Source: a virus. From it: a DNA stretch of 28,662 nucleotides. Position numbers and translations under genes: made by a program. The notes below the pieces were generated by a model. It ran no database searches. It saw only the letters and a list, made by a program, of their open reading frames with translations, and was not told the DNA's origin. The stretch spans positions 1 through 28,662 of IMG/VR virus record IMGVR_UViG_3300028423_000684, one strand, 5' to 3'. Positions 2,490 to 23,143 of this stretch are shown one piece after another (positions within the stretch are counted from its first letter, which is position 1; each line of letters begins with the position of its first letter).

Positions 2490-2515
2490 TGGTCTTCCCT
2501 CTCGGTCTGGTGTGT

Positions 2516-3195: not shown

Positions 3196-3239
3196 TTGTG
3201 CATGTGATCGAGCCCATATCGCCCCCGATATTCCCGCCC
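3196..3239 (+). promoter_or_regulatory. Putative late promoter, copy A (leaderless start)
   Basis: TTGTGCAT (3196-3203), GCCCAT (3212-3217) and GATATTCCCGCCC (3227-3239) run directly into the ATG at 3240. The same blocks recur at 10818 and 21644. GATATT sits seven bases before the ATG, the usual distance from a -10 box to a transcription start, and no Shine-Dalgarno is present. This copy also contains a local inverted repeat, ATATCG-CCCC-CGATAT (3216-3231). It could be a host promoter with a phage activator site or a promoter for a phage-coded factor. Confidence 0.6.
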
Positions 3240-3749
3240 ATGACCTCTCAGGAAAACATGCCCCAAGACCCCGCAAAGATGCCGAAACCCGGCCAGCGCC
3301 CCCGCGGAATGCGCAAGAAAACCCACCTCGCCTGCCTCGCAATCGCAAACAAAGGCAGGACCGTCAAAGAAGCAGCACAAGAAGCAGGCATGAATGAGAG
3401 CGCCCTATACCGGGCGCTAGCCCGCCCCGATGTCGCTCAATACCTCGAAAGCCTCAAAGCCCTGTATATCCTCGAAATCGACGGACTCCGAAAAACCGTC
3501 CGGGCCGAGGCAATCCTCACGGGCAGGGACCTCATGGCAAACGCAAAGTCCGAAGCAGTAAGGGCCAGGATGGTCGAGTTTTTCGCGAGCGAGGACAAGA
3601 AATCGCCCACCGTGACGATACAAAACAACATAAATTCAGGGGGTTACGCCTACGCCCCGCCAGGTGCGCGCGTGGTGGACATCGAGGACGCCGAGACCGT
3701 CGAGGAAGGCGGCACACATGACACGCAGTCAGGGGATGAAAGCCAATAA
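3240..3749 (+). CDS. Putative terminase small subunit / HTH DNA-binding protein
   Basis: A 169-residue protein. After a Pro- and Lys-rich N-terminus, residues about 35-70 form a helix-turn-helix (GRTVKEAAQEAGMNESALYRAL). A long helical region follows (about 75-125) and then an acidic tail, a layout typical of small terminase subunits that recognise the packaging site and form a ring with TerL. I chose the ATG at 3240 because it follows the recurring promoter-like element; a GTG at 3198 would begin inside it, and an ATG at 3258 (AGGA just upstream) is possible. It is the first gene of the packaging and head module, although 360 bases separate it from the next gene. The HTH is clear; the terminase role comes from position and layout. 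Confidence 0.7.
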   Translation: MTSQENMPQDPAKMPKPGQRPRGMRKKTHLACLAIANKGRTVKEAAQEAGMNESALYRALARPDVAQYLESLKALYILEIDGLRKTVRAEAILTGRDLMANAKSEAVRARMVEFFASEDKKSPTVTIQNNINSGGYAYAPPGARVVDIEDAETVEEGGTHDTQSGDESQ

Positions 3750-4111
3750 CATGCTGACAACGCTGCACAATCTCGCAAAGTTGGAACGAGCCACCATGCC
3801 AACAGCCCCAAGCGGCCAAGTTGCGCGGCCTGTGCCCCCACGCGGCAGGGGGGTATCCGCGCTTCACCGGGCCGACCTTGGGGGTGGGGGTAGGGAAAAA
3901 ACGGGCGCGCGCATACTCTCTACTCGTCCCCACCGCGCTCTCCGTTTCATTTTCTTTTTTCCCAAATTTTTTTCCTTGAGGGTGAAGGTCCCACGGGGCT
4001 GGTATCGCTGTTTTCGGTGTTTTCCACACTTTCGGGGGACTTTCGTGGTATTTGGGGGGTTTTCTGGCGGTGCTGGTGTTGATCGGGCTTGGGCTGCTGG
4101 GGGTGCTTGTG
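3750..4111 (+). other. Non-coding spacer between the putative small terminase and the next gene
   Basis: No convincing gene. The frames here are open by composition only. The stretch changes sharply from C/A-rich (to about 3850) through a G-run segment and a pyrimidine/T-tract segment (about 3940-3980) to G/T-rich sequence (after about 4000). It could hold a packaging or replication site, by analogy with phages whose pac or cos site lies near the small terminase gene. I see no direct proof. A hydrophobic frame begins near 4052 (see the next gene). Confidence 0.4.
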
Positions 4112-4375
4112 ATGTCTGACCGGGTTGTTGCCTTGGATGGGCGTGCGGTTTTTCAGGCGGCGGAGCCGAACGATGATGTTGTCTCCAAATTGGAGGAATT
4201 GCTTGATGAGGCTCGATCTGGTCGGTTGCAGGGTTTCACGTTTTGTGCGTTGCGGGCTGACGGGTCTGCGTTCCGGGGTTGGAGCGGCTGGGACAGTCCT
4301 GTTCAGCTTGGGCAGTTGACGCTGTTGTTGCATGAGGCTTGCGAGGATCGGCTTGTTTTCGAGCGGGGTGGGTGA
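4112..4375 (+). CDS. Small hypothetical phage protein upstream of TerL
   Basis: An 87-residue protein from the ATG at 4112. It has a short N-terminal strand, an amphipathic helix containing VVSKLEELLDEARSG (about 23-37), a beta-strand pair around FTFCALRADGS, and a final helix. Similar small proteins with a DVVxxLEELLxxA helix are, as far as I recall, frequent in alphaproteobacterial phages, with no known function. The same frame stays open upstream to a TTG at 4052 and would add a hydrophobic stretch (FLAVLVLIGLGLLGVLV) in GC-ending codons, so a membrane-anchored longer form cannot be excluded. Its stop shares a base with the TerL ATG (TGATG). Confidence 0.6.
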   Translation: MSDRVVALDGRAVFQAAEPNDDVVSKLEELLDEARSGRLQGFTFCALRADGSAFRGWSGWDSPVQLGQLTLLLHEACEDRLVFERGG

Positions 4376-5889
4376 TGCTTCGGACTTCTGACGGGCGGTT
4401 TGTTTATGTTCCTGACGGGAAGGTTCTGAACGACTATTTCTGGGATCGTTCGCGGCTTGGGATTATCCAGGGTCCGATCGGGTCGGGGACATCTTCGGCT
4501 TCGCTTCACAAGATATGGCGTCTGGCGAATGAGCAGGAGCCGGATTGGGACGGCGTGCGTCGGACGAAGTGGATCGTTGCGCGTGAGACCTACAAGCAGT
4601 TGAAGACGACGATTTTGGCGACGACTTGGCCGATCTGGTTCCCCGAGGATGAGTGGGGTGCTGTTGAGCGGTCTGAGCCTGCCGTGGCGCATTTGCGCAA
4701 GCCTCACCCATCGGGGGACGGGACGCGGGTTGAGTGCGACATCACGTTTCTGGCGATCCCGGACGAGACGGTTGCGGAGAGCATTCTGGCGTCTTTTGAG
4801 ATCACGGGGTTTTTCTACAACGAGGGTCAGAATCAGAACCTTGGGGTGATCGTGGAGCTTCTGTCGCGGTGCGGGCGCTTTCCGTCGATGAAGACGGGGC
4901 CCGGGGCGACGTGGTTCGGGGGGATGATCGACCTGAACGCGCCGGTCGAGGGGCACTGGATACCCTACATGCGGGGTGATGTTCCGCTGCCGCCGGACTG
5001 GACGGACGAGCAGAAGGCGCAGTTCAAGAAGCCGGACAACTGGTCGTTCTTCGTGCAGCCGCCCGGGCTGATCGAGAAGATCGTTGACGGAAAGCCGCAC
5101 TACGAGCCGAACGCGGACGCGGAGAATCAGCGGTGGCTCAAGGAACCCTACATCGAGAAGATACAGGGCTGGGACAAGGACCGGATCGACCGGCGCGTTC
5201 TGAACAAAGTGGGCCTGTCGCGGCACGGATTGCCCGTCTACCCCACGTTCATGGCCGACGAGCATGTGGCCTCGAAGGAGTTGGAGCCGATTGATGGGCT
5301 TCCGATCATCGTGGGGCTGGACTTCGGGCGTGAGCCGGCCGCCGTGTTCATGCAGAACCGCGTGGATAACTGGCGCGTCCTGTCCGAGCTGGTGGGGACG
5401 AACGAGGCGGCGACGGACTTTGCGCCCCGTGTTGCCCGGCACCTGGCGCAGCACTACGCCGGGTTTCACGCGGAGTTCTACGGAGACCCCCGCGGGGCGG
5501 ATCGAGGGCAGAACACCGACGTGACGGCCTACGACATCTTCATGGCGAACGGGATGCGGGTGCAGCCCGCCACCATCGACAACAACCCGGAAATGCGCCG
5601 ATCGACGGTGAACAACGTCCTGAAACGGCGCTACGGCCTGACGATCAACCCCTCGTGCCTGACCCTCAAGACCGGCATGGCCGGGGGATACTACTACCGC
5701 AAGATCGCCACCATGGGCGGCGGTTATTCCGAGAAGCCCGCGAAGAACGAATACTCCCACATTGTCGAAGCGATGGAAAACGCGCTCATGGGCGGCGGGG
5801 AAAACCCCGTCGCCATTCCCGGCATCACGCCGCCCAAGCCCCGCGTCGGGGTCCAGCAACACCGGAGGGTCCAGTGGCGGACGAGGTGA
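4375..5889 (+). CDS. Terminase large subunit (TerL)
   Basis: A 504-residue packaging motor that translocates DNA into the prohead and cuts concatemers. The N-terminal ATPase half has a P-loop-like GPIGSGTS at 33-40 and a Walker B-like GFFYNE at 145-150. The C-terminal RuvC/RNase H-like nuclease has GLDFG at 314-318 (Asp316), AEFYGDPRG at 366-374 (Asp371) and HIVEAMENAL at 462-471. Length and layout fit TerL of BPP-1-like podophages. Oddly, the usual P-loop lysine (GSGK) is Thr39. The first third prefers codons ending in G or T, while the last third prefers C, so the gene may be mosaic. The start overlaps the previous stop by one base, and the end overlaps the next gene by 16 bases. Confidence 0.93.
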   Translation: MLRTSDGRFVYVPDGKVLNDYFWDRSRLGIIQGPIGSGTSSASLHKIWRLANEQEPDWDGVRRTKWIVARETYKQLKTTILATTWPIWFPEDEWGAVERSEPAVAHLRKPHPSGDGTRVECDITFLAIPDETVAESILASFEITGFFYNEGQNQNLGVIVELLSRCGRFPSMKTGPGATWFGGMIDLNAPVEGHWIPYMRGDVPLPPDWTDEQKAQFKKPDNWSFFVQPPGLIEKIVDGKPHYEPNADAENQRWLKEPYIEKIQGWDKDRIDRRVLNKVGLSRHGLPVYPTFMADEHVASKELEPIDGLPIIVGLDFGREPAAVFMQNRVDNWRVLSELVGTNEAATDFAPRVARHLAQHYAGFHAEFYGDPRGADRGQNTDVTAYDIFMANGMRVQPATIDNNPEMRRSTVNNVLKRRYGLTINPSCLTLKTGMAGGYYYRKIATMGGGYSEKPAKNEYSHIVEAMENALMGGGENPVAIPGITPPKPRVGVQQHRRVQWRTR

Positions 5890-6341
5890 TCGAATGGTAT
5901 TTCGGCTTCTGGAAACGGCCAAGCCTCTGGCAATTCTGCAAAAAACCGACATGGACCATCTTCGGACACGTCGAGGCATGGGGCTTCACCGCCGACAATA
6001 CTTGGATGTTCTATGACCCGCAGAGGATCGGAACGCAGGTGAAGGTCACGCACCACGCCGAGGAAGTCGAAAACCTGCTGGCGCTGCGTTTCGCGGTCTG
6101 CAAATCCATCCTGCGCCTGCCCCACCCCGGCACGCGGCTGTCCGTCCCGCTCCACCCCACGATGAACTGCGTGAGCCAGTGCGCGGGCCTCGTGGGCATC
6201 CGTGCATATTGCCCCGGCACCTTTCGCCGCAAGTTGCTGCGCAACGGAGCCAAGGAGCTGATAGATGGACGGGCCGAAAGAGAGCGAGGAGTCGAAGCGC
6301 ATCCGCAAGATGGAGCGCCGTCAGGCCACGCAGGAGCGTAA
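5874..6341 (+). CDS. Hypothetical protein between TerL and portal
   Basis: A 155-residue protein starting with GTG at 5874, chosen for a perfect GGAGG five bases upstream; the TerL stop is at 5889. It is Trp-rich at the N-terminus (WYFGFWKRPSLWQF). It then has a central beta-rich domain and the segment NCVSQCAGLVGIRAYCPGTF, which recalls the NCV-x-LLGI block of small podophage proteins found at this same position. A conserved Cys and an upstream His (VTHHAEE) might hint at a hydrolase-like fold, but I cannot show a catalytic site. Its last 25 codons overlap the following small gene in another frame. Confidence 0.7.
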   Translation: MADEVIEWYFGFWKRPSLWQFCKKPTWTIFGHVEAWGFTADNTWMFYDPQRIGTQVKVTHHAEEVENLLALRFAVCKSILRLPHPGTRLSVPLHPTMNCVSQCAGLVGIRAYCPGTFRRKLLRNGAKELIDGRAERERGVEAHPQDGAPSGHAGA

Positions 6342-6441
6342 CAGCGCGACCGAACGCATGGCGGCCGGCCAGACTTCGGACATCAAGCGGTCCTACGACA
6401 GTCCGTTCTCCATGTTCTCGATCTTCCAGCGGCGCCAATGA
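6265..6441 (+). CDS. Small charged protein (58 aa) before the portal gene
   Basis: A 58-codon frame from the ATG at 6265 with AAGGAG seven bases upstream. Its stop overlaps the portal start (ATGA, 6438-6441). The product is strongly helical and charged (KESEESKRIRKMERRQATQE), ending in an aromatic tail (PFSMFSIFQRRQ). Good ribosome site and junction overlap support a real gene although it overlaps the previous frame by 77 bases. Tiny proteins at this position are common in podophage head modules. Function unknown. Confidence 0.65.
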   Translation: MDGPKESEESKRIRKMERRQATQERNSATERMAAGQTSDIKRSYDSPFSMFSIFQRRQ

Positions 6442-7988
6442 AGCCGACGCAGGAATTCTCCACCCGCTTCGAGGAAGCGAAGAAGTGGCGCTCGCTCGTG
6501 GAGCCCTACATCAAGGAGGTGTATTCCTTCTGCGCGCCAGACCGCGTGGATGAATTCACCAAGGGCGGGATGCGCCAGGTGTCCTCCGTTGATACCGAAG
6601 TCTACCACTCGCTCGGGGAAGAAGCCTCCGACGACTTGGCCGGCGATCTGGTCACGTTCTTCACGCCGCCCGAGGCCCGCTGGTTCGACAGCCTCATCAT
6701 GACCGAGGTGCCAGAGGAGGCAGAGGCGCAGGCCAAAGAACTTGTCGGTCAGCGCGAAAGCGACATCGCATCCCTGATCCAAAGCAGCAATTACAACGAC
6801 ATAGCCCCGCAGATCGGGCAGGAAATTGCCTCGCACGGCACGCCGGCCATGTGGGTGCAGAAGGCCCATTTCCAGCAGCCGGTCTACTGCGAGGCGGTGC
6901 CCCCGTCCGAACTCTACCTCGTGCCCGGCCACATGGGGATGCTCGATCGCTTCCGCGAGAAGACTGTGCGCGCCAACACGCTCAAGGCATTGTTCGCGGA
7001 TGAAATCGCCCAGGGCGACGTGGACCTGGAAAGCAACCCGAAGATCAAGGCGAAGATCAACAAGCCCGGGTCGATCTGCGTTGTCGTATGGGGGTTCTGG
7101 CTCGACTGGACCGATCCCGGTTTCCCGATGTGGAAGATGGAAATCACCATCGACAATCACCGCGTCACGCCGACAGAACCCGTCACCCTCGGGCCGGTCA
7201 ACGGTTCCTGCCCGCTTCTCGTGGGCCGGTTCAACCCCCGCTCCGGGCGCCCTTGGGGCCGCGGGCCCGGCTTGCGCGCCCTCGCTGATCTGCGGGTTCT
7301 CGACAAGATCGAGGAAATCTACCTTCTCGGCCTCGAAGACGCGATCAAGAACACGATCATCTACGCCGATGACGGCTTTCTCGACTTCTCCAACGGTGGC
7401 ATCATCCCCGGATCGGCCAACCCGGCATCGCGCGGATTCACCCGAGACCAGATATACGAGCTGAACAAGTCCACCGACATGGAGGTGGCGTTCTTCTCGA
7501 AAGACGACATGGAGCGCCGCATCCGGTCGCTGTTCTATCAGGACGGACCCCGCCAGCGTGGCGACACACCGCCCACGGCCGCCCAATGGTTCGATGAAGC
7601 CCGTCGCGTGCAGCAGCGCCTCGGCAAGCCGTCTGCCCCGTTGTGGACCGAATTCTACGGCCCCTTCGTGCAGCGCGTCGAATTCCTCGGCGTCCAGATG
7701 GGCGACCTCGAACCCCAGCTTCTCCTCGACGGCCGCGCCATCAACGTCCAGCCCGTCTCGCCGCTGCACAAGGCCCAGCAGCACGATCAGGTCATGATCG
7801 CCCGCACCAACATGGAGACCGCCCAGGTCAACTTCGGCCCCGAGGGCGCCATGCAGATCATCGACATGGGCAAGACCTTCCAGAACATCCTGGAAGCGAG
7901 CGGCGATGAGTTGATCGTGATCCGCAAAGAAGACGCCACCCCGCCGCAAGGACCGACCAATGAGCCAGCTCCCGAACCGGATCAGTAA
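6438..7988 (+). CDS. Portal protein (head-to-tail connector, T7/BPP-1 type)
   Basis: A 516-residue protein of the head-tail connector family, which forms the twelve-fold portal ring at one capsid vertex through which DNA enters and leaves. Family-like landmarks are the N-terminal RWRSL-type helix and YSFCAPDR; the core block RPWGRGPGLRALADLRVLDKI (about 270-290); and a C-terminal alpha-rich wing and crown region (about 370-490) with SPLHKAQQHDQV. A Pro/Glu-rich tail ends the protein. The ATG overlaps the preceding stop. The length is normal for the family. The next gene starts 29 bases before the portal stop. Confidence 0.92.
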   Translation: MKPTQEFSTRFEEAKKWRSLVEPYIKEVYSFCAPDRVDEFTKGGMRQVSSVDTEVYHSLGEEASDDLAGDLVTFFTPPEARWFDSLIMTEVPEEAEAQAKELVGQRESDIASLIQSSNYNDIAPQIGQEIASHGTPAMWVQKAHFQQPVYCEAVPPSELYLVPGHMGMLDRFREKTVRANTLKALFADEIAQGDVDLESNPKIKAKINKPGSICVVVWGFWLDWTDPGFPMWKMEITIDNHRVTPTEPVTLGPVNGSCPLLVGRFNPRSGRPWGRGPGLRALADLRVLDKIEEIYLLGLEDAIKNTIIYADDGFLDFSNGGIIPGSANPASRGFTRDQIYELNKSTDMEVAFFSKDDMERRIRSLFYQDGPRQRGDTPPTAAQWFDEARRVQQRLGKPSAPLWTEFYGPFVQRVEFLGVQMGDLEPQLLLDGRAINVQPVSPLHKAQQHDQVMIARTNMETAQVNFGPEGAMQIIDMGKTFQNILEASGDELIVIRKEDATPPQGPTNEPAPEPDQ

Positions 7989-8304
7989 GCCCGGCCCCGT
8001 CCTCGACTATCTCCAGAATCTGGCATCGCAAGGCGGCGAGGGCGGCGACATCGCCCGGCGTGCCGCTCTTGCCGTGCAGCGCGTCCTGCAAACGGAGGAC
8101 GGTGCTATCCTTATGGAATTGCTTGAAAAATCTACCACAGATTATTTCCTGCCGCCGTCTGCCGAAGCCAGTGCATTAGATGCGCTCAATTCTCAGCGTT
8201 TTCTCGTCCTCGATCTCAGGAGGATGAAAACCGATGAAACTCAGCACGTTCTGGCTCGACAGCAAGATCACACGGAAACCCGAGGACGAGGGCGCCGGGG
8301 GTAA
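7960..8304 (+). CDS. Bbp19-like small structural protein
   Basis: A 114-residue protein whose middle (AILMELLEKSTTDYFLPP, then LNSQRFLVLDLRRM) resembles the Bbp19 family found between the portal and scaffold genes of BPP-1-like podophages. Members are small virion or assembly proteins of unknown exact role. AAGGA lies seven bases before the ATG. The frame overlaps the portal end by 29 bases and the scaffold gene start by 71 bases, so the last 23 residues share DNA with the scaffold protein. A sequence matching the late-promoter block (GTGCATTAGAT, 8171-8181) lies inside it. Confidence 0.7.
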   Translation: MSQLPNRISKPGPVLDYLQNLASQGGEGGDIARRAALAVQRVLQTEDGAILMELLEKSTTDYFLPPSAEASALDALNSQRFLVLDLRRMKTDETQHVLARQQDHTETRGRGRRG

Positions 8305-9022
8305 TCCCGACCCGAACGCCGGGAATGGCGATCCCCCGGCAGACCCCCCGGCCGATCCCAATGCCGGCGCCGATCCGCAGGCCCCCGACCTGTCCTTCCT
8401 TGGCGAAGACTATGTGAAGGACGGCAACCTCGACACCGACGCATTCAAGGAACGCTGGGAAACGCTCGTTGCCCAGGAAACCAGGTTTGCCGAACAGGCC
8501 CCGGACATTCCCGAGGACGGCGAATACGACCTCGCGGTGCCTGACGATCTGGATTTCGGTGACATCGAGCTTCCCGAAGGCGTGAACATCGAGCCGCTGG
8601 ACCCCAGCGACGAAACCTTTGCGCCGGTCTTCGAGGAAGCCAAGGCCTTTCTCAAGGAAAACAACATCGGCCAGACCGCTGCCAAGGGCCTGATGGGGCT
8701 CGTGGCGAAGATGGAAGCCGCCAAGGAAGCCAAGCGTTACGCCGCCGCGACCGAAGCCTACAACACGCTCGGCGCGACCGACGCGGCCCGCAACGCGCGG
8801 ATGGCATCGCTTCAACGCGCCGCGCAGACGCGCCTCCCCTCGGATCAGGCCGAGGCCCTTCTTTCAGGAATGACCAGCAGTCCCGAGGCCGTTCGCGCCC
8901 TCGAAAAGCTGCTGGGCATGAACGCGGGGCCCCGAACCTCGCAGAACTCGGCCACCAAAGTCGATCCGAACCTTCGCGGCTTTGATCTTCTCAAGGCGGC
9001 CAACGCAACAGCCCCCAGCTAA
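8234..9022 (+). CDS. Capsid scaffolding protein
   Basis: A 262-residue, very acidic protein with a disordered Pro/Asp/Gly-rich N-terminus (about 16-55) and a helical C-terminal half (about 120-262). It lies directly upstream of the major capsid gene, the classic position for a scaffold that directs prohead assembly and then leaves. AGGAGG precedes the ATG. The protein ends 12 bases before the capsid gene, whose own ribosome site overlaps this spacing. No protease domain is visible, so scaffold release would not need cleavage by this protein. The identity rests on composition and position. Confidence 0.85.
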   Translation: MKLSTFWLDSKITRKPEDEGAGGNPDPNAGNGDPPADPPADPNAGADPQAPDLSFLGEDYVKDGNLDTDAFKERWETLVAQETRFAEQAPDIPEDGEYDLAVPDDLDFGDIELPEGVNIEPLDPSDETFAPVFEEAKAFLKENNIGQTAAKGLMGLVAKMEAAKEAKRYAAATEAYNTLGATDAARNARMASLQRAAQTRLPSDQAEALLSGMTSSPEAVRALEKLLGMNAGPRTSQNSATKVDPNLRGFDLLKAANATAPS

Positions 9023-9034
9023 GGAAGAATCATC

Positions 9035-9997
9035 ATGGTTCACACTCTCCCCGAATACGCCAAGACGGTGGATGATCCGAAGCAGCGGGCCGTGATCGAG
9101 CTTTTCCCGGAAAGCGTCGATTTCATGGCCGCGCTGCCCTTCGCGTCCGCCCCGAACGGCGCATACCGCTACCAGGAAGAAGGCGCCCTGCCCAACAACA
9201 TGGGCTTCCGTGCCATCAACGAGACCCCCAGCGAGGGCCACGGCCTGCTGAACGACCGGGTGGAAATGACCTTCCCGATCGCAGGCAACATCGACGTGGA
9301 CCGCGCGTTGATCCGGCGCCACGGCCCTGATCGTCGCTCCGTCGAGGAGCGCATGTCGATCAAGAAGAAGGCCAAGGTCTGGGCGGACACCTTTATGTTC
9401 GGGGACAACCCCACGGCACCGCGGGAATTTACCGGCCTCAAGAACCGCCTGAATTCGGTCGGCGGGTCCGTGGACGGCTCCAACTACGAAAGCCGCATCC
9501 TGGCGAACGACACGTCCTCGGGCGGCGGCGCGCTGTCGCTGGCACAGCTTGACCGGGCCATCGGCCTTGTCGAGAACCCCAACGGCATCATCATGCCAAA
9601 GGCGCTGAAAGACCGCTTCGCGGCCGCGCAGCGGGACACCAACATCGGTGGCTTCATCACGCTCGACAAGGACGAGATGGGCCGGCAGATCACCCGATAC
9701 GGCGAGCTGCCGATCTACTGCGGCTACGGCGTCTCGAAGTATGGCGAATTCCTGCCCTTCGATGAAGTCGCGCATGGCGGCGGTTCGGCTGTCACGTCCT
9801 CGATCTACATCGTTCGGATGTCCGAGGATGGCGTGGTCGGTCTCGAAGTGCAGCCCATGGAGGTCCAGGACATGGGCCTTCTGGATGATGGCGTCTACTA
9901 CCGGACCAACATCGAACACGATGTCGGCATGGCGGTGTTCGATCCGTTCGCGGCGATCCGCCTGTCCTCCATCACCAACGCAGCAATCGTGAAGTAA
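9035..9997 (+). CDS. Major capsid protein
   Basis: A 320-residue protein of the size and style of HK97-fold capsid subunits of podophages. The N-terminal helix (LPEYAKTVDDPKQRAVIELF) and the following PLLxxxPF-like segment (FMAALPFASAPNGAYRY) are typical. A long central spine helix lies around ERMSIKKKAKVWADTFMFGD. The mid-region NGIIMPKALKDRF and the C-terminal VGMAVFDPFAAIRL match this group of capsid proteins. No N-terminal delta domain is apparent, in line with a separate scaffold gene. AAGGAAG gives a good ribosome site. It should be the most abundant virion protein. Confidence 0.92.
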   Translation: MVHTLPEYAKTVDDPKQRAVIELFPESVDFMAALPFASAPNGAYRYQEEGALPNNMGFRAINETPSEGHGLLNDRVEMTFPIAGNIDVDRALIRRHGPDRRSVEERMSIKKKAKVWADTFMFGDNPTAPREFTGLKNRLNSVGGSVDGSNYESRILANDTSSGGGALSLAQLDRAIGLVENPNGIIMPKALKDRFAAAQRDTNIGGFITLDKDEMGRQITRYGELPIYCGYGVSKYGEFLPFDEVAHGGGSAVTSSIYIVRMSEDGVVGLEVQPMEVQDMGLLDDGVYYRTNIEHDVGMAVFDPFAAIRLSSITNAAIVK

Positions 9998-10009
9998 GGA
10001 GGCAGACCG

Positions 10010-10447
10010 ATGAGCACCATCGACAAATTCTTCGCAATCGACGCCGCAACCGGCCTTATCAAGCGTGAGCTCGGCCTGGCCGCGCTCACCTCTGATGGCT
10101 ATGTCGGCACCCAATGGGACCAGGGCGATGCCGCCTCGACGGACTTGGCCTGCATCATCAACATCGAGTCCTGCAAGGTCTCGGCTGGCGATGAGACCTA
10201 CACGTTCCGCCTGGTTGGCTCCAACGCGAGCAACCGGTCGGATGCGCAGGTTCTCGACACGCTGGAAATCGGTGACGCGGGCACGCTGTCCATCGAGACC
10301 GTCGATACCACGGCTGGCGATCAGTTCGTCATGCGGGGGCGCAGCTTCCGCCGCGGGCTGAATTTCCAGTATATCGACCTGCACCTCGAAGTGGCCGGCA
10401 CGTCGCCTTCCATCGGCTTCGGCGCCTACATCTCGAAGGAGTTCTAA
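10010..10447 (+). CDS. Bbp16-like head cement / decoration protein
   Basis: A 145-residue, all-beta-looking protein immediately after the capsid gene with a perfect AAGGAGG upstream. Position, length and beta pattern (strands around TYTFRLVGS, LDTLEIG, QYIDLHLEVAGTSPS) match Bbp16, the cement protein of phage BPP-1 that clamps neighbouring capsomers. No signal peptide or TM segment is present, and the end (GAYISKEF) is short. It is probably co-expressed with the capsid gene from one transcript. The fold is not proven from sequence alone. Confidence 0.75.
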   Translation: MSTIDKFFAIDAATGLIKRELGLAALTSDGYVGTQWDQGDAASTDLACIINIESCKVSAGDETYTFRLVGSNASNRSDAQVLDTLEIGDAGTLSIETVDTTAGDQFVMRGRSFRRGLNFQYIDLHLEVAGTSPSIGFGAYISKEF

Positions 10448-10450
10448 GCC

Positions 10451-10756
10451 ATGGTGGATATGGTTCGACTGAAACCCGCCCCGGGCGCCCCTGCCGCGAT
10501 TGCCAAGGAAAAGCCGCGTCTCGTGGCCCGCACCACGGCTGTCGAGAATGTTCGGCTCTCCAAGGGCGCCTACACCTTCGAGAACGTCGATCAGCCCGCC
10601 GCGCCGCAGGCTCCGCAGCTCGAAGACATGGACCGGCAGGAGCTTCTGCAAATGGCCCTCGGCATGGGGATGAAAACCTCCAAGCAGATGAAGCACGGCG
10701 ACATCGTGGCTTTTGTCCGCAAGAAGATCGGTGACGTGGAGATTGTGGACGAATAG
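10451..10756 (+). CDS. Small head-associated protein with a HeH/LEM-like C-terminus
   Basis: A 101-residue protein. The first 60 residues are Pro/Ala-rich and probably flexible. The last 40 (LEDMDRQELLQMALGMGMKT...DIVAFVRKKIG) form a short helix-extended-helix unit like those of HeH, SAP and Rho-N domains, seen in small phage head genes at this position. Such domains often bind nucleic acid, but here that is inference. AAGGAG lies nine bases before the ATG. It is the last gene of the head transcript, since a terminator follows at 10789. Confidence 0.7.
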   Translation: MVDMVRLKPAPGAPAAIAKEKPRLVARTTAVENVRLSKGAYTFENVDQPAAPQAPQLEDMDRQELLQMALGMGMKTSKQMKHGDIVAFVRKKIGDVEIVDE

Positions 10757-10788
10757 CCGGACCTGAGACGGCGACTTCGACCGCAACG

Positions 10789-10819
10789 AGGGGGCTGGGG
10801 AGACCTGGCCCCCTTTCTT
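10789..10819 (+). terminator. Rho-independent terminator after the head module
   Basis: AGGGGGC (10789-10795) pairs perfectly with GCCCCCT (10808-10814) over a 12-base loop, followed by TTTCTT. It ends the head transcript 33 bases after the last stop. The next promoter-like element begins at 10818, so the tail/ejection block appears to be restarted independently. Confidence 0.8.
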
Positions 10820-10859
10820 GTGCATTAGATTGTTGATGCGCCTCGTGGAATTTGCCCGC
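10818..10859 (+). promoter_or_regulatory. Putative late promoter, copy B (leaderless start)
   Basis: TTGTGCATTAG (10818-10828) and GAATTTGCCCGC (10848-10859) lead straight into ATGGCAACG at 10860. The distance from TTGTGCAT to the ATG is 42 bases, identical to copy C at 21644. It follows a terminator directly, the expected place for a new promoter. Only a weak GGA lies before the start codon. Confidence 0.65.
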
Positions 10860-11465
10860 ATGGCAACGCAATTCTCCATGCTCGGGATCATGAACGCCGC
10901 TCTGACCGAGCGGGGCTGGGATGAAATCGTCTCGCTCAATGACGGGACGCCCGAGTTTCGGCTGATGCAGCGCCAATGGCCGCGCATTGTCGAGGCCGAA
11001 CTGGAAGACGGGAATTACCAATTCAGTCGGCAGGAAACGACGCTCACGGCCCTGACACCCGGGCGGTATGGCTTCGACAACAGCTTCCAGCTTCCGGCCT
11101 CCGCGCTTCATGTGCGCCACGTCTGGTTCGTCACGAATTCCGTGCGGACCACCTGCGATCACTGGTCGATGGACGATGACGGACTCTACGCCACCCTTCC
11201 GACCGGTGCGGACTGCGTGATCGAATACATCAACTGCCCCGATCCGGCCGCCTGGTCGGCCCGCTTCGCCGCCGGGGTGCAATTCAAGCTGGAAGCGGCC
11301 CTTCTGCGCGGACTGGAAGGCGATGCGCGCGAGGCTTCGGAAATGGACGCGGCGGGCGAGGTCGAATTCCAGAAAGCCCGCACCAAGTCGTCGCAATCGA
11401 AGTCGCCCGATCCGATCACGCGGCAGGGAGGGCTTGCGGGCGCGAGGTTCCGCAGCCGTGCCTAA
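10860..11465 (+). CDS. Tail adaptor / tubular protein A-like protein
   Basis: A 201-residue protein of the T7 gp11-like adaptor type, which forms a ring below the portal and carries the tail nozzle. The opening (MLGIMNAALTERGWDEIVSLNDGTPE), the RQWPRIVEAEL helix and the central SFQLPAS...VRHVW strands fit the family, as does the order adaptor then nozzle. The ATG at 10860 follows the promoter-like element; the frame is open further upstream (TTG at 10818) but those codons are the element itself. The end overlaps the next gene's GTG. Confidence 0.82.
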   Translation: MATQFSMLGIMNAALTERGWDEIVSLNDGTPEFRLMQRQWPRIVEAELEDGNYQFSRQETTLTALTPGRYGFDNSFQLPASALHVRHVWFVTNSVRTTCDHWSMDDDGLYATLPTGADCVIEYINCPDPAAWSARFAAGVQFKLEAALLRGLEGDAREASEMDAAGEVEFQKARTKSSQSKSPDPITRQGGLAGARFRSRA

Positions 11466-13647: not shown

Positions 13648-14069
13648 TGGGCGTTCCAACTCTAGCACTTGCGGTTCAGGCGGGCGGCGCGGTTGCGGGA
13701 GGTCTCGCGGCGCGCGGACAGGCCAAGGCCGAACAGGAGCGCGGCGAGATCAACGCCTACATTGGCGAGACGCGGGCGATCCAGACCGCCACCACCAACG
13801 TCGAGCAACTGAACAGCGAGCTTGGCACGCTCCGCGCCACGCTGGCCCAGAACGGGCAGGGCATGAACGCCGGGACCATGCCGTTCTTCAACGAGCTTTC
13901 CCGCGTCCGGCTTCGTGAAGGGCGCATCCAGTCGAACAACGAGCGCATGGGGGCCGAGGACTCGCGGATGCAGGCCAAGGCGGCAGGGCAACGTGCGGCT
14001 TGGGCCCCGGTCATGGGGATCGGCAAGGCCGCGCCCTCGCTCTACGATATGTGGCAACTGAGGCAGTAA
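13647..14069 (+). CDS. Small internal virion / ejection protein
   Basis: A 140-residue protein with a hydrophobic, small-residue N-terminus (ALAVQAGGAVAGGLAA) followed by a long Gln/Glu-rich helical region and a short C-terminal hydrophobic patch (WAPVMGIGKAAPSLYDMW). Size, position after the nozzle gene and layout resemble T7 gp14-like ejection proteins that form the outer-membrane part of the ejection channel. AGGAGG lies ten bases before the ATG, which overlaps the previous stop. Role assigned by synteny and composition. Confidence 0.72.
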   Translation: MGVPTLALAVQAGGAVAGGLAARGQAKAEQERGEINAYIGETRAIQTATTNVEQLNSELGTLRATLAQNGQGMNAGTMPFFNELSRVRLREGRIQSNNERMGAEDSRMQAKAAGQRAAWAPVMGIGKAAPSLYDMWQLRQ

Positions 14070-14073
14070 CGGC

Positions 14074-16818: not shown

Positions 16819-19082
16819 CATACCTCTTGCCCTCGAAGAACCCGGCGGGTGATCGCCCGGCCCGCGGTGCGGATACGCCGATCGCGGACAACTGGCTGGA
16901 AGGCATCGGCGCGGCGTCCAGGCGCGCAATGCTGGACAAGATGGCGAACAACCGGGACTTCGCTGAAATGTCTCGGATGGAGGAAGAACTCGCCCTGCGC
17001 GCCTTGCAGAACGGCTCCGACGAGGTGCGCCGCGCCATGCGTGAGCCCTTCGAGGAAACCTCGCGCGTGACGGAAATCACCGACGAGGAGATCGCTAACT
17101 CGTTTTCGCGTGGTCGCGGCAATGAAACGGCCGACAACGCCGAAATCATGGACATGATATACGCCGATGCCCAAGAGAACCCGCAGGCTTACGAGGGCCT
17201 GCCGTCCAGCCGCGAAGAACTCGAAGGCCGGGTGCAGGACATGCTCCAAGAGGAGTATCGAGACCTTCTCGCGATCGAGCAGACCGTGCCCGAGGAGCGG
17301 CGGTTCCTGACCAGCCTGATCGGCGGCTTCTATGGAGAATTCAGGGACCTGCGAAACCTTCCATGGATGGCTTTCGGAGGTGGTGGCGGTGTTCTTCGCA
17401 CGATGGGGCGCGAGGCGGCGCTGAACGTGGCGGCCGAGACGACGCAACTGCCGTCCCGGTTTCGGTCTACCGAGTTGCTGGAAACGCCCGATCCGAACGT
17501 CGCTTCGGAACTGGCCTTGGCGGGTGTTTTCGGCGGTGCGTTCGGCGGGATTGCGGCCGGGGGCGCCAAGGCGGCGGATTTCCTGCGCACGCGCAACACA
17601 ACGCCGCGGGTCACGGGCGACCCGATCACCGACCAACAGCTTGCCGGCACGGCAGAGGAAGCGGTTGTCACGGGCGAAGACCCATTGGCGGCCGTGCAGC
17701 GCGACATGGAGGCGATGCCGCAGCAGCAGACGCCGCCGCCGGGGCGCGATCCGCTGATCCTGCGCCCGGAGGAACGGCGCACGCCTGTTGATCCCGAAAT
17801 AGACGCGCAGATTGCCGACCTACAGGCCGAAGTGGACCGGATGCGGGCCGAAGTGGACTACCGGCAGGCCAATCCCCTGATTGACCGGCTGCGGCGCGGC
17901 GACGTGGACCCTCAGAGCGGACGCCGGATGCCAAGTGGCTTGCAGGTCCACCCCGAGGGATCGGCGGCTGACGCGCTGCGGGCGGCCGACATCAATGCAC
18001 GCTCTTTTCCGGGGCTGTTCTCGCGGAAGGGCCGAAAGGAATACGACAACCTCGTGGCGTCGGAGTGGAAAGAAATGTTCCCGGGGATCATCGACGCCAC
18101 CGGCACCCGCTACGGCGACGACTACCTTGACGTGGAGGGGTTTCTGGACGTTGTGGTTCGATCCGCCAAGGGCGACTACGGCTGGCTTCGCTCCCGGGCC
18201 GAAGTGGACGAATTGCAGGCCCGTGTGGCCGATTTGGAAGCCGCGCGGGACCGAGGGTCATTTGAAGGCCCTCTTGCCGATTACGCCAGCGGACAGCGCG
18301 CGGATGACGGTCTCTACATCGACCGGTTTTCCGACGAATGGGAATTTCTCACCGGCGAGGAGCGACTTGGCTACATTGACGCCGCGGTGCGCGGGCAAAT
18401 CGACCGGAACTGGCCCGGCGCCCGGATCACGGATCGGGAAATCTCAGAAATCACGCTGGAACTCGACAATCGTGGCGGCGATGCAGATTTTCTGATAGAA
18501 CGGGTGCTTGAGCGCGAACTGGAATTTGCCGAACTTCCACCATCGAAGGCGCAGGAATATGACGACATCCCCTGGGACGAGACAGGACCGGTTCCGCAAG
18601 ATGCAGCGCCGGGCCGAGGCGGTGCTGAACGACCCGGACAAGACGGCGGCGCAGAAGGCGGCGGCGCAGCGGGTCAAGGACGCAATGTCGAGCAAACTGG
18701 CGCAGGCGAACAAGCCCTCATCGACGGCGTAGAGCCGGTATCCCCGACAGACCAGGCCATGGCGCAGCGCAATGCCGAGGCGCGCCGGCGGGCGGACAAT
18801 GCCCCGCCGATGGACACGGGCCTGTTCGACCTCGGCCAGCGCGACCAGATGGATTGGCTCGACAACCCTGCCAGCGCCAAGGCCGACCCGGTGATGTCGC
18901 AGCAGGTCGAGACCATCCGGGGCGAACTGGAAGCCGACCCCGAACTTGCCGCCCGCAAGGTCGCCATCCAAGACGCGGACGGCAATGTGCGCACCGTCAG
19001 CCTTGCGGATTGGAGCGGCGATCTGGATCAGTGGGAACGGGCGATAGCGCGACTTGATCTTTGCGGGAAAGGACCGTCATGA
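16815..19082 (+). CDS. Internal virion protein 2 (large, polyvalent-like)
   Basis: A 755-residue protein starting with GTG at 16815, overlapping the previous stop (GTGA), with GGAGG ten bases upstream. It has a helical N-terminus, a Gly/Ala-rich hydrophobic patch (about 232-256, ALAGVFGGAFGGIAAGGAKA), coiled-coil segments (about 330-355 and 463-480), and a Gly/Pro-rich linker (about 596-630). The C-terminal domain ends SLADWSGDLDQWERAIARL. This layout is typical of internal or ejected proteins in alphaproteobacterial podophages. The linker is encoded by DNA whose other frame has far better codon use (see 18559-18732). I find no enzymatic motif. Confidence 0.78.
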   Translation: MTYLLPSKNPAGDRPARGADTPIADNWLEGIGAASRRAMLDKMANNRDFAEMSRMEEELALRALQNGSDEVRRAMREPFEETSRVTEITDEEIANSFSRGRGNETADNAEIMDMIYADAQENPQAYEGLPSSREELEGRVQDMLQEEYRDLLAIEQTVPEERRFLTSLIGGFYGEFRDLRNLPWMAFGGGGGVLRTMGREAALNVAAETTQLPSRFRSTELLETPDPNVASELALAGVFGGAFGGIAAGGAKAADFLRTRNTTPRVTGDPITDQQLAGTAEEAVVTGEDPLAAVQRDMEAMPQQQTPPPGRDPLILRPEERRTPVDPEIDAQIADLQAEVDRMRAEVDYRQANPLIDRLRRGDVDPQSGRRMPSGLQVHPEGSAADALRAADINARSFPGLFSRKGRKEYDNLVASEWKEMFPGIIDATGTRYGDDYLDVEGFLDVVVRSAKGDYGWLRSRAEVDELQARVADLEAARDRGSFEGPLADYASGQRADDGLYIDRFSDEWEFLTGEERLGYIDAAVRGQIDRNWPGARITDREISEITLELDNRGGDADFLIERVLERELEFAELPPSKAQEYDDIPWDETGPVPQDAAPGRGGAERPGQDGGAEGGGAAGQGRNVEQTGAGEQALIDGVEPVSPTDQAMAQRNAEARRRADNAPPMDTGLFDLGQRDQMDWLDNPASAKADPVMSQQVETIRGELEADPELAARKVAIQDADGNVRTVSLADWSGDLDQWERAIARLDLCGKGPS
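18559..18732 (+). CDS. Candidate gene nested in the internal virion protein gene
   Basis: A 57-residue frame in the +1 frame relative to its host gene. It starts at an ATG with AAGG nine bases upstream. The product is a basic helix-rich protein (RFRKMQRRAEAVLNDPDKTA, then AAQRVKDAMSSKL). By my hand count, 40 of the 43 codons from 18601 to 18729 end in G or C in this frame against 22 of 43 in the host frame, where the same DNA reads as a Gly-rich linker. That is the normal signature of real coding in this high-GC genome. It could be an overlapping gene or reached by frameshifting; function unknown. Confidence 0.4.
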   Translation: MTTSPGTRQDRFRKMQRRAEAVLNDPDKTAAQKAAAQRVKDAMSSKLAQANKPSSTA

Positions 19083-21643
19083 CCTTCTTCGATTGTGTTT
19101 CCGACGCCCTGGATGAAGGCTCGATCGACAAGAGTCGGGCCGAACGCGCGCAGGAGTATTGGCGGACGTTCCGCGACCGGCATGTGCGCAACGGGCACTC
19201 CGAGGAAATGGCCGATGCCTTGGCGGGCGAGGACGTGAAGGCCGCGTTCCGCAAGGAATTTGGCAAGGAACGTCAGGCATTCATTCAGACCCGGATCGCT
19301 ATGCGGAACTCCGAGGCGCTGGTCGAGAACGCCGTTGATCTGGTGGGGCTTCCGACCGACCGGGTGGAGTTTCGGCCCAACTCCAGGAACCGTGTCAGCC
19401 CTATCGCGCAACAGGCGGATGGCCTCTATCAGCGCGTGAAGGGCCGGATGAACGACCTGGCCGAATACTACGGCCCCAAGCAGTTGACCGGGAAAAGCAA
19501 AGACCCCGCCGGCGTGGATCAGGTGGCAAAGGAAATGATGGGCCAGCCCACCGGCAATCCCCGTGCGGCCATGGTGGCGCGCGTCGTGTCCGAGACCATC
19601 GAAGACCTTCGGCGCATGGCAAACGAGGCCGGGGCGAACATCGGCAAGATCGACAACTACATGCCAACGCGGCACGACCGCATGGCCGTTGCCAAGGCGG
19701 GGTTTGACCAGTGGTTCGAGACCATCGCGCCGAAACTGGACTGGCACCGCATCGAGGATTTCCTGACCGGCCGGCCCATGGCGCCGGAAGGGGGCGAGCC
19801 GCCGATCGAGACGCAGCGGGAATTCCTGCGCGAGATTTTCAACAACATGGCCTTCGGCAAGGACTCGGACAAACCGCAGTATGCCCGGATTTCGGGCGAG
19901 AACATCGTCAAGGCCATGAGCCATGAGCGCGTCCTGCAATTCAAGAGCGCCGAGGACTGGATCGAATACAACACGGCATTCGGCACCGGCGACGTGTTTT
20001 CCGCGATCATGGACCATACCCGTTCCATGTCGGAGGACATCGTGACCCTGCGCGAGCTCGGGCAATCCTGGCGCCTGGGGCTGGACTACGAGCGCCAGGT
20101 CGCGGTCAAGAAGGCGCGCGACATGGGCGACGAGAAACTGGCCGGGAAGGTGGAAGCCGCCTACGACAATGCCGAGATCATGCTTGCCATCCGGCGGGGC
20201 GGCGCGGCGCCAAAAAGCTGGCGGCAGGCCAACCGGGCATCGTGGTATTCATCGGCTCGCTCGTGGATCACAGCCTCGCTGCTGGAAAGAGCGGTCATTC
20301 CCTCGATCAGCGACCTCAATTCGAACCGGCTTGCAGCGCAGACCTTCGGCGCCAATCCCCTGGCTCCGTTCGCTCAGGCGATGAAGTTCATGTTCGACTC
20401 TGCTTCTCGGCAGGACTTGCAGCGCATGGGTCGGGCGCTGGACCATATGTTTCAGACCAACAGCGTTGCAGCACGGTTCAACGCAGAGGCGCCGCCGCAC
20501 GGGTTCGTGAACAACGTGACCAACTCCGTCTTTCGCTACACCGGCCTGAGCGGGCTGACGGATCACGGCCGCAACGCCATCAAGCACGTCTGGCACGGGC
20601 GCATGGCGGACTTTCAGGGGCAGTCCCTCAAGGATGTGGACCCCGGGTTTCGGGAATTGCTCGTGCGCCGCGGCATCACCGAGGAAGATTGGGCCGAATT
20701 CAGCAAGCCGGGCGTCGAGTGGCGCGACGAAAGCGGCGCTCCGTATCTGGATGCGGTCTATTGGCGCGAAAAGACCGACCTCGACCCCAGCCGGGCGGAC
20801 GACATCTTCCTAAAGTTCGAGGGGCTGTCCGAGGAATTCAGCGAAATGGGCGTCCCGTCGCAGAGTCTCTTTGCCCAGGCGCAGACGCTTGGTCGGATTG
20901 GGCTTGACCGCCCCAAGGGGGACTTCGGCTACGAATTCGCCAAGTCCGTGGGCATGTTCAAGTCCTTCCTCAGCGCCTTCACGGTCAACCAGTATCGCGC
21001 GATCATGGGAACGGAAAGCTGGCGCATGTTCGGGTTTCTGCCAGAGGCCAAGGGCCGGGCAGCGCGAGTGGCGCGGTTTGCGGACTCCTTGACGTTCTAC
21101 ACGCTGCTGGGCGGTCTGGCGTTGCAGATCACCAACGTCAACAACGGGCAAGACCCGGAGGATATGTCCGATCCCGACTTCTGGTGGCGGGCCACACTCA
21201 AGGGCGGCGGACTCGGGTTCTTCGGGGACCTGCTGAATATCTCGGGCGGGAAAGACATACCAGGCGCGATCGGCAGTTTTGTCGTCGGTCCTGTGGGCGA
21301 TCTTGCGGTGGATATGGGGCAACTGACCATCGGCAACGGCGCGGAGCTTCTCGCCAACGCATATCGCCTGACGAACGAAACCGATACCAAGCCCACGGGG
21401 CTCGGCGGCGAGGTGGTGGACTTCATAGACGACTGGACGCCCAACGATTTCCCCGTTGTCGGCACGGTGATTGACCGGCTGATGATGGACAACCTCAAGG
21501 CCATCCTTGACCCCGAGGGCGTGGACGACATCGCCGCGGCGGCGCGAAACCGGGAAAATCGCACCGGCAGCAAGTTTTGGTGGACCCCTGGCAAGGCCGC
21601 ACCGGAGCGCGCGCCGGACCTCGGGGCGGCTTTCGGGCGATAG
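19079..21643 (+). CDS. Internal virion protein 3 (large, membrane-active C-terminus)
   Basis: An 854-residue protein starting at the ATG at 19079 (AAAGGA five bases upstream, ATGA overlap with the previous gene). The N-terminal two thirds are helical and hydrophilic, with FDCVSDALDEGSIDKS at the very start and IGKIDNYMPTRHD around 195-205, a segment I associate with large podophage internal proteins. The last third is hydrophobic and Gly-rich (for example TFYTLLGGLALQI and GGLGFFGDLLNI), suggesting insertion into a membrane during ejection. It has the place and size of T7 gp15/gp16-like ejection proteins. Its stop lies one base before the third promoter-like element, with no terminator between. 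Confidence 0.8.
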   Translation: MTFFDCVSDALDEGSIDKSRAERAQEYWRTFRDRHVRNGHSEEMADALAGEDVKAAFRKEFGKERQAFIQTRIAMRNSEALVENAVDLVGLPTDRVEFRPNSRNRVSPIAQQADGLYQRVKGRMNDLAEYYGPKQLTGKSKDPAGVDQVAKEMMGQPTGNPRAAMVARVVSETIEDLRRMANEAGANIGKIDNYMPTRHDRMAVAKAGFDQWFETIAPKLDWHRIEDFLTGRPMAPEGGEPPIETQREFLREIFNNMAFGKDSDKPQYARISGENIVKAMSHERVLQFKSAEDWIEYNTAFGTGDVFSAIMDHTRSMSEDIVTLRELGQSWRLGLDYERQVAVKKARDMGDEKLAGKVEAAYDNAEIMLAIRRGGAAPKSWRQANRASWYSSARSWITASLLERAVIPSISDLNSNRLAAQTFGANPLAPFAQAMKFMFDSASRQDLQRMGRALDHMFQTNSVAARFNAEAPPHGFVNNVTNSVFRYTGLSGLTDHGRNAIKHVWHGRMADFQGQSLKDVDPGFRELLVRRGITEEDWAEFSKPGVEWRDESGAPYLDAVYWREKTDLDPSRADDIFLKFEGLSEEFSEMGVPSQSLFAQAQTLGRIGLDRPKGDFGYEFAKSVGMFKSFLSAFTVNQYRAIMGTESWRMFGFLPEAKGRAARVARFADSLTFYTLLGGLALQITNVNNGQDPEDMSDPDFWWRATLKGGGLGFFGDLLNISGGKDIPGAIGSFVVGPVGDLAVDMGQLTIGNGAELLANAYRLTNETDTKPTGLGGEVVDFIDDWTPNDFPVVGTVIDRLMMDNLKAILDPEGVDDIAAAARNRENRTGSKFWWTPGKAAPERAPDLGAAFGR

Positions 21644-21685
21644 TTGTGCATTAGGTAAGCCCATGGTGGCGCGGATATTCCCGCC
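21644..21685 (+). promoter_or_regulatory. Putative late promoter, copy C (leaderless start)
   Basis: TTGTGCATTAG (21644-21654), GCCCAT (21659-21664) and GATATTCCCGCC (21674-21685) run directly into ATGGCAACG at 21686. It shares the downstream 12-mer with copy A and the upstream 11-mer, the exact 42-base spacing and the first codons with copy B. There is no Shine-Dalgarno. It begins immediately after the stop of the previous gene. Confidence 0.65.
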
Positions 21686-23143
21686 ATGGCAACGCTTTCT
21701 GCATCAGACCCCCGCGAGAACACGGTCACGCTGGCTTCGGCCTCGGCGGGGCCGATCGAGGTAGGCTTCCGGCTGTTCAGCGAGGACATCAAGGTTTACG
21801 TCGATTACGTCGAGACCTCGGCCTACACGCTTTCCGCCTCTTTCGAGAACGGCTTTGAGGACGACGCGACGATCACCTTTGATGCGGCGCAGGACTCCGG
21901 GTCCATCATCACGATCCAGTCCGACTTCGTGCCAGAGCGAGGCACCAACTTCCTTCCGAGTGATGCGCAACTCACCGACAAGATGAATGTCGAGCTCGGC
22001 CACTTGTGGGGGTCGGTGGCTGACGACAAGCGCGACTTCGGGCGGGCGTTAAAGTTTGCTCCGGGTGATGGGGCAAATTCCGTTCTTCCCGCCCTGCAAT
22101 CATCCAGTGCGTTGATCGTGAACGCGGCGGGCGACGGTTTTGAAATGGGCCCGACAGCGGCTCAGATCGAAGGGGCCGAAGCGGCGGCGGTTGACGCAGC
22201 CAATTCCTTCGATGAATTCAGCCGCCTTTACCTTGGAACGAAGTCGAGCGATCCGGCGACAGACAATGAAGGGGACGCCCTTCAAACGGGCGCGCTCTAC
22301 TACAACGACTCCGACAACGAGATGCGGCAATACAATGGCGCCGCATGGGAAACGGCCTATGGCACGATCAGCGGCGCCGACGGGGCGCTGTTGAGTGAAA
22401 ACAACCTTTCTGACGTTGCGAACGCTGAGTCCGCTCGCGGGAATCTTGGCCTGACCATCGGGACGCATGTGCAGGGCATTGGCGATGCCATAGACGACCC
22501 CATCCTGACGGGCGATGTGTCGGGCAATGCTTTGTCGTCCACGGTGTCAGCGGTCGCGGGCATCGTCCATAACCGCATCATGACGCCGGTGCGGACGCGC
22601 GAAGCCATTGAAGCCCTTGCCGGGCAACAGAAAGTCGAGACGATCACCCTGTCAGGCGATGCGAGCGTGGACATTACGCTGCCTTCGATGTTCCGGGGCG
22701 TTCGGATCACGCTGGATAACGTGATTCCGTCTTCCGATGAAGTTTACCTGATGCTGCGCACATCGTCGGACGGCGGGTCCACTTTCGACAGTGGCGCCAG
22801 TGACTACGATCAAATCACGTCCGGTCTTGATAACATCCAAGAGGCTTCTGATAGTCGTTCGTCCCTAAGCGCAGTATACCTGACCACGTTTGAGCTCGAT
22901 GAAGCAGTTGGTTCCAGCACTTTCGAAGATGGGGTGTCCGGTGACGTTGAAGTGTTCGGACACGGCCTGTCCAGACGGACGCATGTTCGCGGCAATGTCG
23001 CCTACTACGCTGCTGATGGGAAGCTGAACCAAAACTCGGTCTGGGCTTTCCGCACGCAGCAAGCGGCGGTTGATGCTGTCCGCTTGTCGTTCGACACCGG
23101 CAACCTCGAAAGCGGCACGATCACTGTCTACGGGGTTGCCTGA
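21686..23143 (+). CDS. Tail fibre protein (T7-fibre-type N-terminus)
   Basis: A 485-residue tail fibre. Residues about 1-115 fit the T7 tail-fibre N-terminal domain that fixes the fibre to the tail: FRLFSEDIKVYVDYVETSAY, an acidic strand region, and the SDFVPERGTNFLPSDAQL block followed by DKMNVELGHLWG. The middle has repeat-like shaft sequence (NLSDVANAESARGNLGL, typical of trimeric fibres), and the C-terminus (about 310-485) is a beta-rich domain that should contact the receptor. It starts at 21686 behind its own promoter-like element, so host-range genes appear to form a separate transcription unit. Confidence 0.88.
   Translation: MATLSASDPRENTVTLASASAGPIEVGFRLFSEDIKVYVDYVETSAYTLSASFENGFEDDATITFDAAQDSGSIITIQSDFVPERGTNFLPSDAQLTDKMNVELGHLWGSVADDKRDFGRALKFAPGDGANSVLPALQSSSALIVNAAGDGFEMGPTAAQIEGAEAAAVDAANSFDEFSRLYLGTKSSDPATDNEGDALQTGALYYNDSDNEMRQYNGAAWETAYGTISGADGALLSENNLSDVANAESARGNLGLTIGTHVQGIGDAIDDPILTGDVSGNALSSTVSAVAGIVHNRIMTPVRTREAIEALAGQQKVETITLSGDASVDITLPSMFRGVRITLDNVIPSSDEVYLMLRTSSDGGSTFDSGASDYDQITSGLDNIQEASDSRSSLSAVYLTTFELDEAVGSSTFEDGVSGDVEVFGHGLSRRTHVRGNVAYYAADGKLNQNSVWAFRTQQAAVDAVRLSFDTGNLESGTITVYGVA

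Follow-up and report, generated by a model that had tools for sequence, protein, structure and literature searches.

Gene content and relatives of the window

The window, that is the whole stretch of 28,662 nucleotides that was analyzed, encodes a small and a large terminase, a portal (head-tail adaptor), a major head protein, tail tubular proteins A and B, three large ejection-type proteins, a fibre, a tail assembly chaperone and an endolysin. It is a fragment of a podovirus, and the phage was probably temperate since two complete genomes of its relatives carry lysogeny-type genes (integrase and cI/cro-like genes), along with RecT, exonuclease VIII, RuvC and DnaB. A DNA-level search of phage records with the window gave no match, and a search of the window against Rfam for a conserved RNA element gave none either. 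The close relatives are prophages of Roseovarius amoyensis GCL-8, Oceanicola sp. S124 and Pseudooceanicola endophyticus, together with uncultured phages.

The left end of the window carries two overlapping ORFs on the minus strand (1449-2561 and 148-1770) whose matches fall in different parts of one DNA methyltransferase family, and the coding frame seems to shift near 1450-1650, the frameshift being either real or due to sequencing. The early regions of the relatives hold some further genes of note. The product of one (L118:8387-9367, plus strand) joins a RecT-type annealing protein to a ribosome modulation factor (RMF) domain at its C-terminus; RMF matched two of the 56 early proteins scanned, this one and a second protein. 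L118/L119 further encode, in their early region, a match to Tad3 (E 1.5e-35), which inhibits type I Thoeris, and a match to Lar restriction alleviation.

Table 1. Coordinates of the features of the window.
Feature	Position	Strand	Remarks
DNA methyltransferase region	148..2561	-	left end of window
Promoter A, GTGCAT box	3198..3203	+	before small terminase; box also before terS in relatives
Promoter A, -10-like box GATATT	3227..3232	+	23 bp after GTGCAT; SAWNNT consensus, 34 sites
Small terminase gene (terS)	3240..3749	+	phrog_2538; without Shine-Dalgarno (duplex +0.3 kcal/mol)
Terminator-like hairpin	10788..10819	+	12 bp stem, loop 10800-10803, then TCTT; ends at promoter B GTGCAT
Promoter B, GTGCAT box	10820..10825	+	before tail tubular A; kept at 16/17 TTA loci
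Promoter B, -10-like box GAATTT	10848..10853	+	22 bp after GTGCAT
Tail tubular protein A-like gene (TTA)	10860..11465	+	phrog_394 tail protein; Shine-Dalgarno duplex -3.3
Promoter C, GTGCAT box	21646..21651	+	before fibre gene
Promoter C, -10-like box GATATT	21674..21679	+	22 bp after GTGCAT
Tail fibre-like gene	21686..23143	+	phrog tail fibre matches

Three promoter-like sites

The initial annotation had described a repeated late-promoter-like element abutting the start codons of three genes, and the three sites, here named A, B and C, are indeed present where it had placed them (Table 1). The 42-base spacing that it reported for B and C was confirmed, site A being two bases longer. Other parts of that description stood only in the window itself. 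The 12-mer GATATTCCCGCC does occur exactly twice there but is not conserved as such in the relatives, which keep only the SAWNNT box and a GC-rich stretch ending in C, and the word ATGGCAACG is found at both B and C but mostly encodes the conserved N-terminus Met-Ala-Thr. As for the upstream word TTGTGCAT shared by the three sites, its GTGCAT core is kept in the relatives and its leading TT is not; nothing is conserved upstream of GTGCAT, and therefore the TT lies outside the box.

The word TTGTGCAT occurs exactly three times in the window against 0.70 expected, and at least three copies were reached in 3 of 100 shuffles, so the word alone is a weak signal that could be due to chance. Once the distance to the start codon is included the signal is stronger and significant within the window itself: the pattern GTGCAT-N34..36-ATG is found four times against 0.57 expected, a number reached in none of 100 shuffles; three of these matches are A, B and C, and the fourth (24309) lies within a coding region. 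The GTG of GTGCAT and the TTG of TTGTGCAT were also considered as start codons and were discarded, being in frame at only some of the sites (gaps of 34, 35 or 36).

Conservation in related phages

The search of related phages that had been proposed together with the annotation found the blocks conserved before the same three genes (terS, TTA and fibre). With the starts located by homology, GTGCAT-N34..38-ATG precedes 36 of the 39 terS, TTA and fibre starts; among 122 starts of eleven other late genes of these phages it precedes one. The box-to-ATG distance in the relatives is 34-36 bp and once 38. The misses are accounted for by a contig end (L103), TTGCAT in place of the box at site B of Oceanicola/G002, and an inserted gene at site C of G415, while the only match among the other late starts belongs to the large terminase of G014. 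This extra copy of the promoter in G014 (L129:4742) lies directly after a stop codon. Over 21 records GTGCAT-N34..36-ATG gave 43 matches and a reversed-pattern control gave one. The N-terminus of TTA aligns from residue 1 in the relatives, and that of the window's fibre is homologous to fibre genes behind a GTGCAT box in the relatives; the promoter C box is common to the Roseovarius, Oceanicola and Pseudooceanicola prophages, G013, G413 and G414.

The fixed distance of the box, its conservation and its placement before three genes are far beyond chance across the relatives. Furthermore, the proteins encoded behind A-, B- and C-type sites are often just 33-50% identical and the spacer between the box and the -10 is hardly conserved, and therefore the box is maintained by selection rather than by recent ancestry.

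Matches upstream of the portal gene (L099:7219, L128:7219, L149:13152 and L154:11930) were left uncounted as a by-product of coding, because the differences between L099 and L128 fall at third codon positions. A scan of the viral contigs of the collection for TTGTGCAT-N19..25-GAWWTTNNCCGC gave 95 matches, nearly all of them from one unrelated coding sequence or due to chance. The promoter design was not found in Burkholderia phage BcepC6B, and the GTGCAT form matched once in Pelagibacter phage Hodr, at none of the late starts.

Promoter anatomy

As read from the alignment of 34 sites, the conserved core of the putative promoters is GTGCAT, 22 or 23 bp, SAWNNT, 6 to 9 bp ending in C, and ATG. 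GTGCAT stands 22 or 23 bp ahead of SAWNNT in most of the sites, and the interval is GC-rich and little conserved. SAWNNT has the form of a weak -10 with A-11 and T-7: counted from the box, offset 24 is A in 24 of 34 sites and offset 28 is T in 23 of 34, and these are bases 2 and 6 of the -10 hexamer, the most important positions of a sigma70 -10. The -10 is weak overall, and it is hardly recognisable at the Oceanicola and Pseudooceanicola terS sites. The base preceding the ATG is C in 34 of 34 sites.

Leaderless RNA 5' ends are predicted from the position of the -10 and the invariant C at -1. In the window transcription of terS would begin at A3240 or at most 2 nt away, and leaderless starts are likewise predicted at A10860 for TTA and at A21686 for the fibre gene. 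With RNA starting on the A of the ATG, SAWNNT would span -12 to -7 and GTGCAT would span -40 to -35. Two further points of the initial annotation were borne out here. Shine-Dalgarno sequences are absent at A, B and C, where the duplex energies are +0.3, -3.3 and -3.3 kcal/mol, most other late genes falling between about -4 and -12. Also the upstream box is too far away to serve as a -35, and there is no conserved -35 in the alignment and no sigma70-type site at B or C. The sites therefore lack the -35 hexamer 16-18 bp upstream of the -10 that defines a sigma70 promoter, and they have what characterizes a class II-like activator-dependent promoter, namely a conserved box that overlaps the -35 or lies just upstream of it, at a fixed distance from the -10. 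In the related phages they are placed before late operons, as expected of activator-dependent late promoters.

The terminator-like hairpin immediately upstream of the B box was not scored as a terminator by a simple terminator scan. Of 16 loci, some of them near-duplicates, 13 have a strong hairpin ahead of the B box, frequently accompanied by a T run, so that the tail promoter seems to start at the very point where the head operon stops.

Candidate activator

The initial annotation suggested that the element is read by a phage-coded activator, sigma factor or polymerase. An activator fits best, with an XRE-HTH protein kept in a position like that of lambda Q, while the other two options lost ground: Pfam matches for the 56 early-region ORFs of two complete relatives include no sigma factor, RNA polymerase or Q family. 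HTH_3 matched just three of these ORFs, one of which is the XRE-HTH candidate. This protein of approximately 165 amino acids is present in all six relatives whose DNA extends to its locus, encoded in the lytic direction just before terS, and the copies are 36-48% identical outside close pairs. It begins with a Cys-containing domain, which is followed by an XRE HTH and a tail rich in Arg. Its assignment to the XRE family rests on the Oceanicola copy, which scores 26.3 bits with HTH_3 (cut-off 23) and 27.4 bits with HTH_31 (cut-off 27). The nearest matches of the predicted structure (mean pLDDT 70) are HipB, SinR and C proteins, each at E > 0.01. The recognition helix, mostly xDHLAKxE, is nearly constant, like the box.

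A search with the XRE-HTH protein retrieved eleven more contigs (one as a partial match), eight of which hold terS. GTGCAT precedes terS in six of the eight (L143, L148, L149, L150, L154 and L155), and the two without an in-register GTGCAT there are L156 and L147. In L156/G419 the terS box reads GCGCAT and is out of register, and the TTA gene of L156 has GTGCAT; in G412 (L147/L164) it reads ATGCAT with a gap of 33 to the ATG. The genome of G412 is also rearranged, the activator gene adjoining that of the last ejection protein and the two being convergent. Co-occurrence of activator and box is not independent evidence because, apart from the switch in Mwe-JY08 described below, it is confined to one phage lineage.

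In the fragment L144 the activator gene is followed by methyltransferase genes as at the left end of the window, and therefore the window's own activator gene probably lies just beyond that end.

Among 395 genomes of the host family searched for close relatives, the MCP was found in one and the HTH protein in two, one of the latter being a copy with 26% identity in an apparent prophage remnant. This distant copy, on the bacterial chromosome G069 (L169/L170), overlaps a small-terminase-like gene and adjoins transposase-like genes, and is probably what is left of a prophage.

Judged from its position and conservation, the XRE-HTH protein is the most likely activator, standing in place of lambda Q. 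XRE proteins normally bind palindromes as dimers, and a single asymmetric 6-bp box is unusual for such a protein.

A deep relative with another box

Phage Mwe-JY08 is a deep relative, its TerL, MCP and TTA being 40, 41 and 26% identical. GTGCAT promoters were looked for in its genome and none was found. Instead it has a box GTGCGTTGAG in five copies versus 0.14 expected. Two of the five stand exactly 34 bp before ATGs that have no Shine-Dalgarno and are preceded by C, those of TTA and of a putative fibre (the gene following the last ejection protein); the remaining copies, before terS, at 11292 and at 13900, are at other distances. The HTH protein encoded before terS in this phage is the best match of the activator profile (E 7e-4), and its recognition helix reads SGYTGKLE versus mostly xDHLAKxE elsewhere. 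Thus box and helix have changed together while the geometry was kept. Although a single case, this is the best available argument that the box is read by the HTH protein.

The genome of Mwe-JY08 (L172, PP395640) is labelled 'Microcystis phage' but has a GC-rich appearance, and it is the nearest described relative of these alphaproteobacterial podoviruses. The stated cyanobacterial host may be wrong, the actual one perhaps being an associated bacterium.

Transcription model and its alternatives

Taken together, sites A, B and C are probably leaderless late promoters, used by host RNA polymerase with the help of a phage activator at GTGCAT. The polymerase would read the weak SAWNNT -10 and start on the A of the start codon, which would make the three leading mRNAs leaderless. 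The activator, bound at about -40 to -35, would substitute for the missing -35 contact and probably touch sigma region 4, by analogy with lambda CI at PRM and with the C proteins of restriction-modification systems. It would most likely be the XRE-HTH protein, whose gene is among the last of the early lytic operon and immediately precedes terS. At site B the head operon would end at a terminator-like hairpin and a new promoter begin at once, so that the head, tail/ejection and fibre blocks could be turned on together, as separate units. In this scheme the RNA start point, the binding of the activator and the mechanism of activation are the steps that we infer. A more specific version is tentative and rather doubtful: the Cys-domain/XRE protein alone, as a monomer or an unusual complex, would direct the polymerase from an asymmetric 6-bp box to the start codons of all structural operons, the late genes would be set apart in both transcription and translation, and box and helix would co-diverge between lineages.

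The promoters may be the same but GTGCAT may be read by a host factor or by another small phage protein, which we consider unlikely. A gene of approximately 100 codons on the minus strand, with weak HTH-like matches, is conserved beside the activator, and we infer the binding of the XRE protein to GTGCAT, an asymmetric box unlike an XRE operator. However, the minus-strand gene is more divergent (24-44% identity outside close pairs) and convergent with the lytic operon, and a host factor would hardly explain why Mwe-JY08 has a different box along with a different phage HTH protein.

It is quite improbable that GTGCAT is the loading site of a Q-like antiterminator, with constitutive starts and a polymerase modified to pass downstream terminators. 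The HTH gene does sit where lambda Q would be, the head and tail operons are separated by a hairpin, and Q-type proteins also bind promoter DNA. Yet that hairpin is followed by a new promoter, promoter B, leaderless initiation allows no untranslated pause region, and the early proteins of the two complete relatives match no Q family, so the candidate is not a member of it by this measure. Constitutive starts are also unlikely because the -10 is weak and the -35 absent.

It is very improbable that a novel phage sigma factor uses GTGCAT as its -35-like box, or that GTGCAT belongs to a phage RNA polymerase promoter. Although a two-part conserved signal with odd spacing would suit such a factor or polymerase, neither family was matched in the early regions of the two complete relatives, and a box-to--10 distance of 22 bp falls outside sigma factor geometry. 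Single-subunit RNA polymerase promoters are continuous from about -17 to +6, whereas the middle of the signal described here is unconserved.

Finally, we give next to no credence to the sites being chance, coding by-products or a packaging/nicking signal: TTGTGCAT alone is just mildly over-represented in the window and one GTGCAT..ATG match upstream of the portal in some relatives is a coding coincidence, but the conservation data (36/39 versus 1/122, a fixed distance to the ATG, a conserved -10 and C at -1) strongly contradict a chance or by-product origin, and a packaging or nicking signal would not stand before three different operons per genome instead of at one site.

The activator-dependent late promoters proposed here thus come with a concrete consensus, a prediction of leaderless mRNA for three structural operons and one named activator gene. 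To our knowledge, little has been described of how late genes are controlled in the podoviruses and prophages of marine Roseobacter-type bacteria, and the consensus enables promoter annotation and operon calls in many uncultured phages. The compact pair of activator and box, with a second pair of different specificity in Mwe-JY08, lends itself to the study of how host RNA polymerase is redirected, and would also be a system for leaderless mRNA use at high expression.

Comparison with known systems

Several phage regulators resemble parts of this arrangement. At PRM lambda CI is an HTH activator beside the -35 region and the activated mRNA is leaderless; unlike the present case, CI has palindromic 17-bp operators and serves the maintenance of lysogeny from one promoter, not the late genes. 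At the T4 MotA/AsiA middle promoters and the P2 Ogr late promoters a phage activator box replaces the -35 contact of host RNA polymerase, but boxes, positions and protein families are other than here, and the transcripts have ordinary leaders with Shine-Dalgarno sequences. The lambda Q regulator gene is the last early gene and adjoins the terminase genes; Q, however, acts by antitermination from one promoter with a leader, whereas here there are three promoters, each with its own box.

C.PvuII is a small HTH activator whose activated transcript is leaderless and starts from the initiator codon (PMC2997769). C proteins of this kind are similar to the candidate in being small HTH activators with a leaderless transcript and possible sigma70 contact (PMC2997769). 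They differ in autoregulating their own operon via C boxes, instead of three structural operons via one asymmetric 6-bp box, and the candidate additionally possesses a Cys-containing domain and an Arg-rich tail. Gene transfer agents of the same host group have phage-derived activators, GafA and GafYZ, which work near the -35 of late-type structural genes but differ in fold from the candidate (PMC9638019, PMC11150451). GafA binds DNA through DnaA-like and sigma-like domains (PMC9638019), while the only matched domain of the candidate is the XRE HTH, which places it outside the GafA/GafYZ group. In the mapped CcGTA transcript a long leader precedes the start codon, which stands at +251, in contrast to the leaderless starts predicted here.

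In the literature covered by our search, which lay outside subscription papers, no GTGCAT phage promoter and no leaderless late operons in such phages were found. The activator-dependent late promoter is of a known kind. What appears to be new is that an asymmetric 6-bp box goes together with a Cys-domain XRE activator and with predicted leaderless starts at the three structural operons.
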